A DNA stretch of 64,000 nt from assembly GCF_947495725.1 (NCBI RefSeq), contig NZ_CANLZZ010000003.1, forward strand, positions 366,341 through 430,340, given 5' to 3'. The notes beneath the pieces were generated by a model. That model was not told the DNA's origin, ran no database searches, and worked only from the letters and a program-made list of their open reading frames with translations. The DNA comes from an uncultured Lutibacter sp. (GTDB taxonomy: Bacteria > Bacteroidota > Bacteroidia > Flavobacteriales > Flavobacteriaceae). The stretch's first letter is position 1. Each line of letters opens with the position of its first letter. Shown here piece after piece: positions 54,078 through 59,873 of this stretch. The position numbers were made by a program, and so were the translations under genes.

Positions 54078-55028
54078 TTATTTCATAATTATTCCTTTTA
54101 AAAAACCTAAACCATATCCAATAAATTGAATTAATGATGTAATTACACTTACAAATGCTACAATAAAATTTTTGTTTTTAATTAATGAATCAATAAATAA
54201 AATTGAAAAATAAATTAGATATAAACAAATAAATAAATGCGCTCCATTTATCAAAAAAATAAAAGAAATTACCAATCCCATTAAAAACAATGAAGGAAAC
54301 CAATAAGTTAGTTTTGCTGTTTCGGGATATTTTCTATTTAAAAAAGGTCTACCATTTCCAAAAGCAAATGTTTGCTTAAAAAATTGCTTAAAAGTTGTTC
54401 TTCGCTTATGATATACGAATGCTTTTTCTATAAATTGAGTCTCAAATTTAAGTTCCCATAGTCGAAAAGTTAAATCAATATCTTCACCTATTTTAAGTTT
54501 ACTAAAACCACCTGTTTTATAAAATGCTTGTTTAGAAATACCAAAATTAAAACTTCGCGGCTGAAATTTATCTATTGCTTTTTTACTTCCTCTAATTCCG
54601 CCGGTAGTAAAAAAAGAAGTCATACTATAATTTATTGCCTTTTGAATTATTGTAAAAGAATGATGTGCAGCATCTGCACCTCCATAAGCATCTGTATATT
54701 TTTTTAATAAAGCTTTTTCAACTTCTTTAAAATAATTATCTGGAATAATACAATCAGAATCAAAAATTATAAAGTAATTTCCTGTGGCTTTTTGCATTCC
54801 AAAATTACGGCTCTCTCCTGCTCCACTATTCTCTTTAAAATAATATTGAACATTTAATTTTTCAACATATTTTAAAACTACTTCATTAGCTTTATTTTTT
54901 GAGCCATCTTCAACAACAATAACTTCAAAAGAATGGGCATAAGTTTGCTTTGTTAAACTTTCCAACAGCTCATCGATTTCATTTGGACGGTTGAAAACTG
55001 GAATTATAATTGAAAACTGAATATTCAC
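54078..55028 (-). CDS. Family 2 glycosyltransferase with membrane anchor
   Basis: GT-A fold inverting glycosyltransferase of 316 residues: FSIIIPVFNRPNEI start, VVEDGS nucleotide-binding string near 39-44, metal-binding DSD in FIIFDSDCIIP near 93-95, GGFSKLKIGEDIDLTFRLWE acceptor/catalytic region near 193-212, then two or three transmembrane segments at the C-terminus (about 243-310). The protein probably adds a sugar to a lipid- or envelope-linked acceptor. It stands alone; no surrounding glycan cluster is present, so its target cannot be named. Confidence 0.9.
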   Translation of the reverse strand: MNIQFSIIIPVFNRPNEIDELLESLTKQTYAHSFEVIVVEDGSKNKANEVVLKYVEKLNVQYYFKENSGAGESRNFGMQKATGNYFIIFDSDCIIPDNYFKEVEKALLKKYTDAYGGADAAHHSFTIIQKAINYSMTSFFTTGGIRGSKKAIDKFQPRSFNFGISKQAFYKTGGFSKLKIGEDIDLTFRLWELKFETQFIEKAFVYHKRRTTFKQFFKQTFAFGNGRPFLNRKYPETAKLTYWFPSLFLMGLVISFIFLINGAHLFICLYLIYFSILFIDSLIKNKNFIVAFVSVITSLIQFIGYGLGFLKGIIMK

Positions 55029-55150: not shown

Positions 55151-56878
55151 TTAATGTTGCAATACTGCTAAATCTACATCTTTGTACAGTTCTAAATTTT
55201 CTAATCTAAAATTATCCATATATTCAAATTTCTCTCTATTCTCTGAACGTACTAAATTTACATAAAGCCTTGCTGATTTAATAAACTTATCATCCTTTTG
55301 GCTATTTAAAACCAATAAATATCCCATAATTATGTTTCCGGCCATTTCAACTAATCTAGTTGAATGAAAATCTAATAATTCTGTATTTTCAAAATCCATT
55401 ACTCTTTTAACCGAGTTTTCATATTCTTCAGTCATTTTATGAAGCTTAGTCCTAATTTCACAATTTTTATCAGAAACCATACTATCATATTCCTTTATTT
55501 GTTCTAAGAAAACTTTAGTTGTAACCCCCTTAATAGCTGCCACAGCTTGTAGTTGTGATGTACCTTCATAAATTGAAGTAATACGTGCATCTCTATAAAT
55601 ACGTTCAATAGGAAAATCTTTCATAAATCCAGTTCCCCCGTGTATTTGTAGAGAGTCGTAAGCTATTTTATTACAAGATTCACTTGCTGTTAATTTTATT
55701 AAAGGTGTAAACACATTAGCTAATTTTGCAAAGTGTTTCATTTCCATTCGCTCATCTTTTTCCAGTTTTCTCTTACTCATAGTGTCCTCATATGCTTTGG
55801 AAACATCTACAAATCGAGTAGTTTCATATAGTAATGAACGTAATGCGTCAACACGTATTTTCATATTTGTTAGCATCTCATAAACAGCTGGAAAGTTTAC
55901 AATTTCTTTTCCAAATTGCGCTCTCTCTTCTGCATATTTTAACGCTTCTCTATATGCTGCATCTGCTATTCCAACAGATTGAGCTCCTACTCCTAAACGC
56001 GCAGAATTCATTAATGCCATTACGTACTTTATCAAACCAAAACGTTCCTTACCTACCAATTCAGCTGGTGCATCTTTAAAAACTAATTCGCAAGTTGGTG
56101 AGCCTTTAATTCCTAATTTTTTTTCTAAATGACGAACTTCTACAGCGTGATCGTTTCTATCATAAATAAACATTGATAATCCTCTAGCATCAGTTGTTCC
56201 TTCTTCTGAACGTGCAAGAACTAACGAAATATCAGCATCACCATTTGTTATAAAGCGTTTTACACCATTTAAAATCCACGTATTCTTTTCTTCATTAAAA
56301 ACTGCTTTCAATTTTACAGATTGTAAATCTGAACCAGCATCAGGTTCTGTCAATACCATTGCTGCAGTTGCTCCGTCTCTATTAAAACGTGGTAAATATT
56401 TTTCTCGTTGTTCTTCTGAACCAAATTCATAAATAGTTTCTGCACAATCTTGTAATCCCCAAATATTTGCAAAACCTGCATCTGCACGAGCAACCATCTC
56501 GGCTGCCATAACATAAGGCAACAAAGGAAAATTTAAACCTCCATATTTACGAGGTAAGGCCATTCCAACGAGTCCAGCCTCGTATAATGCTTTATAATCT
56601 TCAGTAGTCCCCTTAGCATAAATTACTTCATTATTTTCTAAATGCGGACCTTCTACATCTACACCTTCAGCATTTTTAGAAATAGTATTTGCACAAATAT
56701 CTCCTACAATTTCTAATATTTTTTCATAAGAATCTATGGCATCTTCATGATTTAATGGAGCATAATCAAACTCTTCTGATTCTATAAAATTTTGCTCTTT
56801 TAATTTTACTATTTTAGCCACAATGGGATCTTTAAGGTGAAACTTAAAATCCGGTGTGTCTGTGAAAAAATTATTCAT
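55151..56878 (-). CDS. Acyl-CoA dehydrogenase, extended form
   Basis: FAD enzyme that oxidises an acyl-CoA to the 2-enoyl-CoA and passes electrons to ETF. The core (about 60-445) has AMVLTEPDAGSD (FAD/substrate contact), WILNGVKRFITNGDADI and catalytic Glu438 in YEGTSQLQ. At 575 residues it is about 190 longer than typical members: an extra N-terminal stretch of about 60 and a helical C-terminal domain of about 130 after the catalytic motif. It forms an operon with etfA and etfB just upstream, which suggests a dedicated dehydrogenase-ETF complex rather than generic beta-oxidation. Confidence 0.92.
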   Translation of the reverse strand: MNNFFTDTPDFKFHLKDPIVAKIVKLKEQNFIESEEFDYAPLNHEDAIDSYEKILEIVGDICANTISKNAEGVDVEGPHLENNEVIYAKGTTEDYKALYEAGLVGMALPRKYGGLNFPLLPYVMAAEMVARADAGFANIWGLQDCAETIYEFGSEEQREKYLPRFNRDGATAAMVLTEPDAGSDLQSVKLKAVFNEEKNTWILNGVKRFITNGDADISLVLARSEEGTTDARGLSMFIYDRNDHAVEVRHLEKKLGIKGSPTCELVFKDAPAELVGKERFGLIKYVMALMNSARLGVGAQSVGIADAAYREALKYAEERAQFGKEIVNFPAVYEMLTNMKIRVDALRSLLYETTRFVDVSKAYEDTMSKRKLEKDERMEMKHFAKLANVFTPLIKLTASESCNKIAYDSLQIHGGTGFMKDFPIERIYRDARITSIYEGTSQLQAVAAIKGVTTKVFLEQIKEYDSMVSDKNCEIRTKLHKMTEEYENSVKRVMDFENTELLDFHSTRLVEMAGNIIMGYLLVLNSQKDDKFIKSARLYVNLVRSENREKFEYMDNFRLENLELYKDVDLAVLQH

Positions 56879-56935: not shown

Positions 56936-57964
56936 CTATTTAGCGTTTTCCTTGTAATATTTAATCATTTTAGGAAGAACAACTCCCAAATCGCCAGTAA
57001 TTACATAATCTGCAATATCATTTATTGGGGCTTCAGGATCATTATTTATTGAAATAATCATAGAAGCATCTTGCATTCCAGCCGTATGTTGAATAGCTCC
57101 AGAGATACCTGCAGCAATGTATAGTTTTGGCCGAACTGTGGTTCCTGTTTGTCCAATTTGACGATTATGATCAATAAAACCTGCATCAACAGCTGCTCTT
57201 GAGCCTCCAACTTCACCACCTAAAATATTTGCCAAATTTCGTAGTAAATCAAAGTTTTCTTTTGAACCTACACCGTATCCTCCAGCTACAATAATTGGTG
57301 CTTCTTTTAAATTTACTCCAGATTCTTCTATATAGCGCTCAATAACTTCAACTATTAAATCTTCATCTTTTAAAATTTCATTTGCATTTATTTCAATTAT
57401 TTGAGTTTTATAATTTGCATCAAAAATTTCTTTTTTCATAACACCTTCTCTAACTGTTGCCATTTGAGGGTGCATATCCCAGTTTATAATGTTTGCCATT
57501 ATACTTCCTCCAAAAGCTGGACGAATGGCATATAATAAATCTTTATATTCTTTCTTTTCTTTTTTATCAAAATGATCACCAATATCTAATATGGTAGTAT
57601 CAGCTGTCAATCCACAGTTTAATTTTGAAGCCAATCTTGGAGCTAAATCTCTACCAACTGAAGTTGCGCCAAACAATACTATTTGAGGATCTTGTTCCTT
57701 CAATACTTTATGAGCTAAAGCCGCATGTGGCAAGGTTTTGTAAGGTTCTAATCTCGCATCGTCAGAAATAAATAATTTATCAACCCCATAAGGAGATATT
57801 TGATTTTCAATTCCTTTTAAGTTTTTGCCAAAAACCATTGCATCTAAAGGACAACCAAGTTTTTGAGCTAATCGTTTTCCTGCTGATAATAACTCCTGAC
57901 TTATTTCTGCTACTTCTTGATTTTCTACTTCGCAATAAACAAATACACTTTTCATTTTATTCAT
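56936..57964 (-). CDS. etfA: Electron transfer flavoprotein alpha subunit (FixB-like)
   Basis: FAD-binding subunit of ETF, 342 residues. The C-terminal FAD motif is complete: GGSRAAVDAGFIDHNRQIGQTG then YIAAGISGAIQHTAGM and the NNDPEAPI loop. The N-terminal domain is FixB-type (VFVYCEVENQEVAEISQELL). A second ATG 9 bp downstream (57955, MKSVFVYCE) could be the true start. Lies 15 bp after etfB and 57 bp before the acyl-CoA dehydrogenase gene on the minus strand. Confidence 0.94.
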   Translation of the reverse strand: MNKMKSVFVYCEVENQEVAEISQELLSAGKRLAQKLGCPLDAMVFGKNLKGIENQISPYGVDKLFISDDARLEPYKTLPHAALAHKVLKEQDPQIVLFGATSVGRDLAPRLASKLNCGLTADTTILDIGDHFDKKEKKEYKDLLYAIRPAFGGSIMANIINWDMHPQMATVREGVMKKEIFDANYKTQIIEINANEILKDEDLIVEVIERYIEESGVNLKEAPIIVAGGYGVGSKENFDLLRNLANILGGEVGGSRAAVDAGFIDHNRQIGQTGTTVRPKLYIAAGISGAIQHTAGMQDASMIISINNDPEAPINDIADYVITGDLGVVLPKMIKYYKENAK

Positions 57965-57979
57965 TTTAAGTTATATCAA

Positions 57980-58855
57980 CTACCCAATGGTGTGATGTTT
58001 AATTAATTCTTTAATCATTCCTTCAATATCGCTATCCGAATCCGTTAATACTTTAGATTCATTTGCTGTTAGCACAATACTTGAAACGCTTTTTACTTTA
58101 GTAGGAGAACCAGCTAAACCAATTTTGGTTACATCTGCTTCAATATCTTCAACACTCCATTCTGGAATAACTAAATATGGTCGCTTTTTATGTAATTCTT
58201 CAAGTACGGGATCTCCTTTTCTCATTTCAGTATTGGTTCTTGCGTATTTGTATTTCATTACATTTTTTGCAATTCGAGATCTACATTTAGGTGAAGAACC
58301 GTGAACTGTCATTAAACAAGGATATGGGGAAGACACTTTTTCTATACCCTTTTCTAAACGTCGTCTTGCAACAATTTTATCTTCATTTATTTCTAATATC
58401 TCTTCTACATAAGTAACTTGAGGAATATTTAACTTATCAGCACACTGAGGTCCTACTTGTGCGGTATCGCCATCAATAGCTTGTCTACCTCCAACAATTA
58501 AATCGAAATCTGCTATTTTTTTAATTCCCTGAACTAAAGTATAACTTGTTGCTAAGGTATCTGCTCCTCCAAAACGTCTATCTGAAATCATAATTCCATC
58601 ATCAACACCTCTATAATATCCTTCTCGAACAATATCTGCCGCTTTTTGAGGTCCCATTGTTAATATTGTAACTTTGGTTCCTGGAATACGGTCTTTTATA
58701 TTTAATGCTAATTCCAGAGCATGTAAATCATCTGGATTGAAAACGGTTGCAAGCTTACCTCTATTTACTGTACCATCTGGTTTCATGGCATCTGGACCCA
58801 CATGACGTGTATCCGGGACTTGCTTTGCAAGTACAACAATTTTAAGTGGTCTCAT
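57980..58855 (-). CDS. etfB: Electron transfer flavoprotein beta subunit, bifurcating-type motif
   Basis: Partner of EtfA, 291 residues (longer than the 248-260 of common ETF beta). The start LKIVVLAKQVPDTRHVG is FixA-like. The diagnostic string V-G-G-R-Q-A-I-D-G-D-T-A-Q-V-G-P-Q (121-137) matches EtfB of electron-bifurcating ETFs, where this loop binds the bifurcating FAD; non-bifurcating EtfB has G-K-Q-A-I-D-D-D at this place and binds AMP. This is family knowledge applied to the sequence, not proof. First gene of the etfB-etfA-acd operon; a minus-strand TATTTTTG box at 58935-58942 may be its -7. Confidence 0.94.
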   Translation of the reverse strand: MRPLKIVVLAKQVPDTRHVGPDAMKPDGTVNRGKLATVFNPDDLHALELALNIKDRIPGTKVTILTMGPQKAADIVREGYYRGVDDGIMISDRRFGGADTLATSYTLVQGIKKIADFDLIVGGRQAIDGDTAQVGPQCADKLNIPQVTYVEEILEINEDKIVARRRLEKGIEKVSSPYPCLMTVHGSSPKCRSRIAKNVMKYKYARTNTEMRKGDPVLEELHKKRPYLVIPEWSVEDIEADVTKIGLAGSPTKVKSVSSIVLTANESKVLTDSDSDIEGMIKELIKHHTIG

Positions 58856-58971: not shown

Positions 58972-59006
58972 AAAAAAAGCGATGATTTTAAATCACCGCT
59001 TTTTTT
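58972..59006. terminator. Terminator between etf operon start and fabI end
   Basis: AAAAAAAGCGATGATTT (58972-58988) pairs with AAATCACCGCTTTTTTT-type arm (58990-59006) with one mismatch. It ends fabI transcription on the minus strand, upstream of the etfB promoter. Confidence 0.85.
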
Positions 59007-59027: not shown

Positions 59028-59873
59028 CTATTTACCTTTGCTCTCATCTTTTTTTTCTGCTTCCATTTCCATAAACTCATTCATTACAGCCGTACTAACT
59101 CCCATATTTGAGAATCCTCCATCGTGATATAAATTTTGTAGAGTAACCTTTTTTGTTAAGTCTGAAAATAATGAAATTGTATAGTCTGCGCACTCTAAAG
59201 CACTTGCATTTCCAAGTGGTGACATTTTTTCTGCGTAAGCAATAAAACCATCAAATCCTTTAACCCCACTTCCTGCAGTAGTTGGAGTTGGTGATTGAGA
59301 AATTGTATTTACTCTTACTTTATTGTCACGTCCAAAAAAGTATCCAAAACTACGTGCAACTGATTCTAAATATGCTTTATTATCAGCCATATCATTATAA
59401 TCTGGGAATACACGTTGGGCTGCCATATATGATAATGCAACAATACTTCCCCACTCATTCATTGCTTCTTTTTTGTACAACATACTCATTACTCTATGAA
59501 AAGATAATGCTGAAACATCAAATCCAGTTTTTGTAAAATTATAATCTTGATTGGTATAGTGATTTCCTCTTCTAACATTAACAGACATACCTATTGAATG
59601 TAAAACAAAATCTATTTTACCTCCTAAAATCTCCATTGATTTATCAATAAGATTCTCTAAATCCATCATAGATGTGGCATCTGCAGGAATAACTTGTGAA
59701 CCTGTTTTTTCAGCTAATTCAGAAATAGTTCCTAGCCTCATTGCAACTGGCGCATTTGTTAAAACAAATGTAGCTCCTTCTTCATGAGCTCGTTCAGCAA
59801 CTTTCCAAGCAATAGAATTTGAATCTAAAGCACCAAAAATTATTCCTTTTTTACCCTTTAATAAATTATACAT
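59028..59873 (-). CDS. fabI: Enoyl-[acyl-carrier-protein] reductase (NADH)
   Basis: Last reduction step of fatty-acid elongation; short-chain dehydrogenase superfamily, 281 residues. The N-terminal nucleotide motif GALDSNSIAWKVA is the FabI variant of GxxxGIG; catalytic Tyr159 and Lys166 are in YNDMADNK (Y-x6-K); HSIGMS near 92 and SQSPTPTTAGSG near 206 are FabI-like. Length is slightly more than E. coli FabI (262) with a Lys/Glu-rich tail. A full promoter (TTG-17-TATATTTG) lies upstream, overlapping the end of recN. Confidence 0.95.
   Translation of the reverse strand: MYNLLKGKKGIIFGALDSNSIAWKVAERAHEEGATFVLTNAPVAMRLGTISELAEKTGSQVIPADATSMMDLENLIDKSMEILGGKIDFVLHSIGMSVNVRRGNHYTNQDYNFTKTGFDVSALSFHRVMSMLYKKEAMNEWGSIVALSYMAAQRVFPDYNDMADNKAYLESVARSFGYFFGRDNKVRVNTISQSPTPTTAGSGVKGFDGFIAYAEKMSPLGNASALECADYTISLFSDLTKKVTLQNLYHDGGFSNMGVSTAVMNEFMEMEAEKKDESKGK

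Follow-up and report, generated by a model that had tools for sequence, protein, structure and literature searches.

The window, i.e., the whole stretch of 64,000 nucleotides that was analysed, carries on its minus strand three genes in the order etfB, etfA and acyl-CoA dehydrogenase (ACAD), separated from one another by 15 and 57 bases. The first, etfB (57980..58855), encodes a 291-aa protein with a PF01012 domain (125 bits), which sequence scores, a tree and a fold comparison assign to the small subunits of group-2 (bifurcating-type) ETFs. The open reading frame, profile and PDB sequence scores identify the second as etfA (56936..57964, 342 aa) and the third as an ACAD (55151..56878, 575 aa). 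This ACAD contains the usual ACAD domains followed by a C-terminal extension matching the PF12186 profile (residues 453-562, 55193..55522, minus strand). Glu438 of its YEGTS motif, which we take to be the catalytic residue, is kept in all 77 relatives whose alignment reaches it (79 relatives in total). Among the solved dehydrogenases nearest to it, 5ol2_C from the C. difficile complex ranks second, 9w60 fourth and 1buc seventh, the latter two both being labelled butyryl-CoA dehydrogenase. A FabI-type gene, fabI (59028-59873), lies 172 bases upstream of etfB, and a glycosyltransferase gene (54078-55028) is found past the ACAD gene.

Excerpts of PMC9232219 describe four sequence marks of bifurcating ETFs, each of which was mutated in that work: the DGDTAQVGP loop that binds b-FAD, the RXFXG loop that binds NAD, the SPT motif that anchors the EtfB arm, and an EtfA arginine at N5 of b-FAD. 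All four are present in the window. By alignment, the b-FAD loop is GGRQAIDGDTAQVGPQ at EtfB residues 122-137 (58445..58492, minus strand; role in excerpts of PMC9232219 and PMC12630350), so that the original prediction was right about the loop and one residue off in placing it at 121-137. DGDTAQVGP occurs once across the six frames of the window, and its nine positions are invariant in the 59 aligned Bacteroidota rows (window counted in), except residue 132, with a single change from A to D. Gly129, which corresponds to position 123 of A. fermentans EtfB, is found in 59/59 rows; a glycine making room for the flavin is used as a criterion of bifurcation in PMC12630350. The NAD loop is RRFGG (residues 93-97, 58565..58579, minus strand), giving R93-F95-G97, and S250-P251-T252 occupies the place of the arm anchor (58100..58108, minus strand), both by alignment and with roles as in the PMC9232219 excerpts. 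Across the 59 rows the R is kept in 57, the F in 53, the G in 59 and the SPT in 59. In the alignment, the canonical EtfB from this genome carries a Tyr at the place of Gly129 and lacks the NAD loop; neither of these canonical marks, a bulkier residue for Gly129 and a missing RxFxG loop, was found in the window EtfB.

In EtfA, the alignment places RPAFGG at residues 148-153 (57506..57523, minus strand), and Arg148 matches the Arg beside N5 of b-FAD (excerpts of PMC10734219 and PMC9232219); it is kept in 82/82 rows. PMC10734219 sets the N5 Arg within an RPXFGG motif, uses swapped subunit names, reports this Arg in some other ETF groups too, and also names an RXGV motif, which is reported for most group-2 sequences and hence not taken as defining. 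RXGV is not kept in any of the 59 Bacteroidota EtfB rows, where Arg32 stays but another residue always replaces the Gly, and Leu stands in for the Val.

Both ETF subunits also carry additional segments. In EtfB, alignment and model reveal an extra stretch at residues ~207-229 (58169..58237, minus strand), past the dehydrogenase-recognition loop as this loop is described in the PMC9232219 excerpts. It is absent from A. fermentans EtfB, the sole bifurcating EtfB aligned over that part, and is modelled confidently by AlphaFold (pLDDT block means 83-94) within a model of mean pLDDT 81.9 in which residues 248-266 and 288-291 fall below 50. The alignment of EtfA shows an insert of ~11 aa (residues ~131-141, 57542..57574, minus strand) shortly before RPAFGG. 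This insert is shared with B. thetaiotaomicron 3ih5, missing in 5ol2, 6fah, 7koe and 4kpu, and seen in Bacteroidales relatives as well. Together with the PF12186 extension of ACAD, the two segments suggest, judging from sequence and model, a co-adapted partner surface.

In order to place EtfB among the ETFs, three comparisons were used. Sequence scores against the EtfBs of bifurcating PDB entries reached 179 bits for CarD, 167 for LctB, 161 for C. difficile, 141 for T. maritima and 139 for A. fermentans, as against 47 for 1efv, 47 for 2a1t, 45 for 1efp, 44 for 1o94 and 28 for 5ow0 among canonical-type chains. A quick EtfB tree of 77 rows was built from 30 of 80 named loci, 19 genome-search loci, 10 rows of the genus, among them the window, 7 fragments from the PDB and 11 rows of canonical flavobacterial EtfBs. 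In it, 13 canonical rows separate from group 2 with a support of 96 (starred), and the 59 group-2 rows from Bacteroidota stay in one cluster at 100 (starred); since long branches were flagged, only the canonical/group-2 split is used here. In the fold comparison, where the Foldseek matches of the EtfB model were re-examined, five bifurcating EtfBs came first (Z 26.6-27.0, 34-40% identity) ahead of canonical EtfBs (Z 23.0-25.9, 20-26% identity), Z values so nearly tied that Z alone hardly separates the two kinds. EtfB is thus placed with group 2 and not with the canonical ETFs by sequence score and tree, and the fold comparison agrees. The original prediction that the loop is the bifurcating b-FAD form and not the AMP-binding one is borne out in this way, and so is its claim that EtfB is encoded with EtfA and an extended ACAD, in an arrangement that is conserved.

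A scan of named genomes returned at least 585 relatives, and the best 80 of these belong by title mostly to Bacteroidales and families of that order. From 85 loci, 11 with less than 3.2 kb downstream were set aside; in all 74 counted, EtfA lies within 200 bases of EtfB and a same-strand ACAD follows downstream, within 400 bases in 67 loci and within 1.6 kb in the other 7. No other cluster of open reading frames, and so no neighbour naming the substrate, recurs in more than 10 of 83 loci (78 of the best 80 of at least 585, plus 5). The same three annotated genes are found in records of Bacteroides finegoldii and Parabacteroides distasonis that are filed as plasmids, and group-2-like EtfBs below 60% identity occur on rhizobial and other plasmids (275 records). 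At the level of the phylum, 17/296 genomes have a match (E up to 1e-25). Among 246 sampled Flavobacteriales genomes, a match below 1e-100 was obtained in four, namely the one that holds the window and three from a different family, while the remaining matches in the order (3e-13 to 1e-5) belong to the canonical length class where fetched. The three genes therefore form a conserved Bacteroidota module that is rare in Flavobacteriales. On Bacteroidales as a possible donor, the trees disagree: the genus is nested among Bacteroidales-type sequences in the EtfB tree, but a three-gene tree (39 of the 80 named loci, plus 5) makes it sister to all Bacteroidales-type sequences (support 89, not starred).

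Within the genus, the cassette was detected in 24/38 genomes, in none of them with an internal stop. In G260, G273 and G277 the PF12186 domain was detected without an EtfB match, and in G262 the reverse; because the two kinds of match disagree in these four genomes, some non-carriers may be broken assemblies. The locus was examined in 22 of the 24 carriers (window included) and in 8 of the 14 non-carriers. In the 21 carriers besides the window, the same glycosyltransferase gene follows ACAD in 21/21, and fabI precedes etfB in 19, the contig ending first in the other two. In 8/8 non-carriers, fabI lies directly next to the glycosyltransferase gene. Other genera of the family show the same arrangement at 15 of 16 loci, the glycosyltransferase gene not having been seen at the sixteenth. 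The junction of fabI and the glycosyltransferase gene is therefore a fixed site at which the cassette is either present or cleanly absent. Between fabI and etfB, a terminator-like hairpin followed by a T run was recognized by eye (58972..58999, minus strand), and similar hairpins, also by eye, follow fabI in congeners devoid of the cassette. When compared with the window's fabI-etfB gap, only G271 and G272 of seven gaps stood above all shuffles, and G248 tied. Co-transcription with fabI was rejected as unlikely because of the hairpin between the two genes.

On a tree of the flanking genes, the distribution takes five presence/absence changes, with a non-carrier at the base. One gain and four losses fit this tree, a count of changes being unable by itself to tell gain from loss. 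The tree of the cassette unites G000 (the window's genome), G247, G249, G251, G254, G265 and G266 at 100/100. The flanking genes reject this group of seven with a p-AU of 1e-8, a value weakened by the fact that the group was named after the EtfB identities had been seen. From this conflict between the two trees, the cassette seems to have passed from congener to congener, presumably through recombination in the flanks that they share. The accessory cassette would have entered the genus probably once and then have been lost from, or exchanged between, species. Base composition gives no sign of recent import, third-position GC being 0.157-0.172 for the three cassette genes and 0.167 for fabI.

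In the same genome, the second, canonical ETF that was looked for following the original prediction was found as an EtfBA pair at G000:C4, 515486-517275. Of the haem-copper oxidase genes, one is a fusion with FixO (cbb3 type), and the other two encode COX1 proteins, which are read as aa3 type and NorB, Pfam giving just COX1 for both. A complete rnfBCDGEA operon lies at G000:C2 (about 480299-485367), each of the six subunits scoring over its TIGRFAM cut-off. A pyruvate:ferredoxin oxidoreductase (PFOR) reaches 1165 bits on the part read, for a cut-off of 911, and a VorB-type oxidoreductase also exceeds its NCBIfam cut-off, so that genes to make reduced ferredoxin and, with Rnf, to re-oxidise it are present. 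An OAFO-type alpha subunit is encoded as well, and an IorA-like protein scores below its own cut-off; with PFOR, the OAFO type, VorB and the IorA-like protein, the POR_N-type 2-oxoacid oxidoreductase genes come to four, which makes for a rich ferredoxin metabolism in an organism presumed to be aerobic. The description of the organism as an aerobic-type flavobacterium stands as far as the oxidase genes go and has to be amended for PFOR, the VorB-type enzyme and the Rnf operon; with canonical EtfBA, a full Rnf operon, PFOR and haem-copper oxidase genes together, the host looks facultative. Rnf as a companion of the cassette was not retained: among the 38 genus genomes, incomplete ones included, 14 have both, 10 the cassette only, 6 Rnf only and 8 neither, showing no clear association.

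Taken with the motifs and the placement, these data lead us to favour, on balance, a complex of EtfAB and ACAD that would bifurcate electrons from NADH to ferredoxin and enoyl-CoA, with Rnf as one sink. In this reading, the cassette encodes an EtfAB of group 2 (bifurcating type) together with a dedicated, extended acyl-CoA dehydrogenase. The FAD in EtfB, b-FAD, would receive a hydride from NADH; one electron would then pass through the mobile FAD of EtfA and the FAD of the dehydrogenase to reduce enoyl-CoA, and the second would go to ferredoxin or flavodoxin. Reduced ferredoxin could be re-oxidised by the Rnf encoded in this genome. Running in reverse, the complex might also confurcate electrons from an acyl-CoA and reduced ferredoxin to form NADH.

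The loop alone is no proof of bifurcation, because the acryloyl-CoA reductase complex of C. propionicum has both FADs and appears to be non-bifurcating (excerpt of PMC5861303). By analogy, a group-2 EtfAB with two FADs might pass both NADH electrons to enoyl-CoA without ferredoxin, a reading that we regard as possible but rather unlikely. An insertion described for the C. propionicum complex may keep ferredoxin from binding (excerpt of PMC9232219), and the EtfA described here has its ~11-aa insert near RPAFGG. Acryloyl-CoA reductase models are also the best or second-best NCBIfam matches of all three proteins: AcrA is the best for EtfA (310 bits), AcrC the best for ACAD (272 bits), and AcrB comes second for EtfB (200 bits) behind NF040731 (227). 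These scores are nevertheless far from the equivalog cut-offs of 600, 640 and 475 bits, respectively. Moreover, the EtfA insert is also found in the Bacteroidales relatives, which are strict anaerobes and for which bifurcation would be useful. The Acr matches, the changed RXGV and the inserts close to functional parts of both subunits also count against the bifurcating NADH/ferredoxin/enoyl-CoA complex, as do the independent distribution of Rnf and cassette in the genus and the want of a shared neighbour pointing to a substrate.

The original prediction had further allowed for quinone reduction, as in an NADH/ferredoxin/quinone complex like FixABCX or EtfABCX. Such systems have an EtfAB of the same group as here (141 bits between our EtfB and T. 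maritima EtfB of EtfABCX) but work with FixCX or EtfCX and quinone. PF05187 (ETF-QO/EtfX type) was not found in the genome by domain search, although the control search did detect it in the EtfABCX-carrying Thermotoga maritima and in 2 of 13 further controls. This absence argues against a quinone branch, and ACAD is the constant partner of EtfAB, other neighbours not being widely shared; we therefore dropped this proposal as very improbable. Also very improbable is an ordinary canonical beta-oxidation ETF merely resembling the bifurcating form, whose electrons the products of the host's oxidase genes could accept. The tree and the alignment (Gly129 for a bulkier residue, full b-FAD and NAD loops) led us to reject it, and a canonical EtfBA is already encoded elsewhere in the genome. 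As to the latter, adjacent genes on G000:C7 encode a 437-aa 4Fe-4S protein (membrane segments by eye) and a 259-aa CCG protein, a split Fe-S/CCG pair that could replace ETF-QO as the quinone link of the canonical ETF.

Compared with known systems, the proposed bifurcating complex belongs to the same EtfB/EtfA group as C. difficile Bcd-EtfAB (5ol2), A. fermentans EtfAB (4kpu) and the caffeyl-CoA reductase CarCDE (6fah). It shares with them the b-FAD loop, the NAD loop, the EtfA Arg and an ACAD-family dehydrogenase partner, and its EtfA, like that of 5ol2, is devoid of an N-terminal ferredoxin domain. It differs from the three by the EtfB segment past the recognition loop, the EtfA insert before RPAFGG and the changed RXGV, and its ACAD has 575 aa with PF12186, against 378 aa for 5ol2_C and 379 aa for 6fah_C. 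C. propionicum AcrABC likewise has a group-2-like EtfAB with an ACAD, and EtfA and EtfB align nearly full-length to the corresponding NCBIfam models; scores below the equivalog cut-offs and the extension of ACAD set the window proteins apart. B. thetaiotaomicron 3ih5, the structure entry of a single domain (EtfA N-terminal domain), is of the same subtype with the same EtfA insert, and no functional study of it was found in the literature searched.

According to PMC6085437, 98% of the genomes predicted to encode bifurcating Bcd-EtfAB belong to anaerobic taxa. Where a complex of bifurcating type stands beside oxidase genes, Rnf and a canonical ETF, one may ask to what use the host puts b-FAD chemistry, and whether this serves as a switch for anoxia. 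The kind of complex is known. Its variant described here is a Bacteroidota subtype with an extended dehydrogenase, which in a flavobacterium possessing oxidase genes takes the form of a movable cassette. In the open-licence literature searched, we found neither a report of this variant nor a study of the function of the subtype. More tentatively, flavobacteria with genes for oxygen respiration may possess a horizontally exchanged, fixed-site bifurcation cassette in which the PF12186 extension would dock on the EtfB insert, and which would feed ferredoxin and Rnf at low oxygen and be lost or regained between close species. Since congeners with and without the cassette differ at one locus, its role is testable by comparison, and as the subtype is frequent among Bacteroidales genomes, a single enzyme study would inform many of them. 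Finally, three genomes of another Flavobacteriales family (G030, G008 and G021), of ~1.7-1.8 Mb, encode a group-2 EtfB whose place in the tree is among Bacteroides sequences, perhaps the result of a separate transfer.
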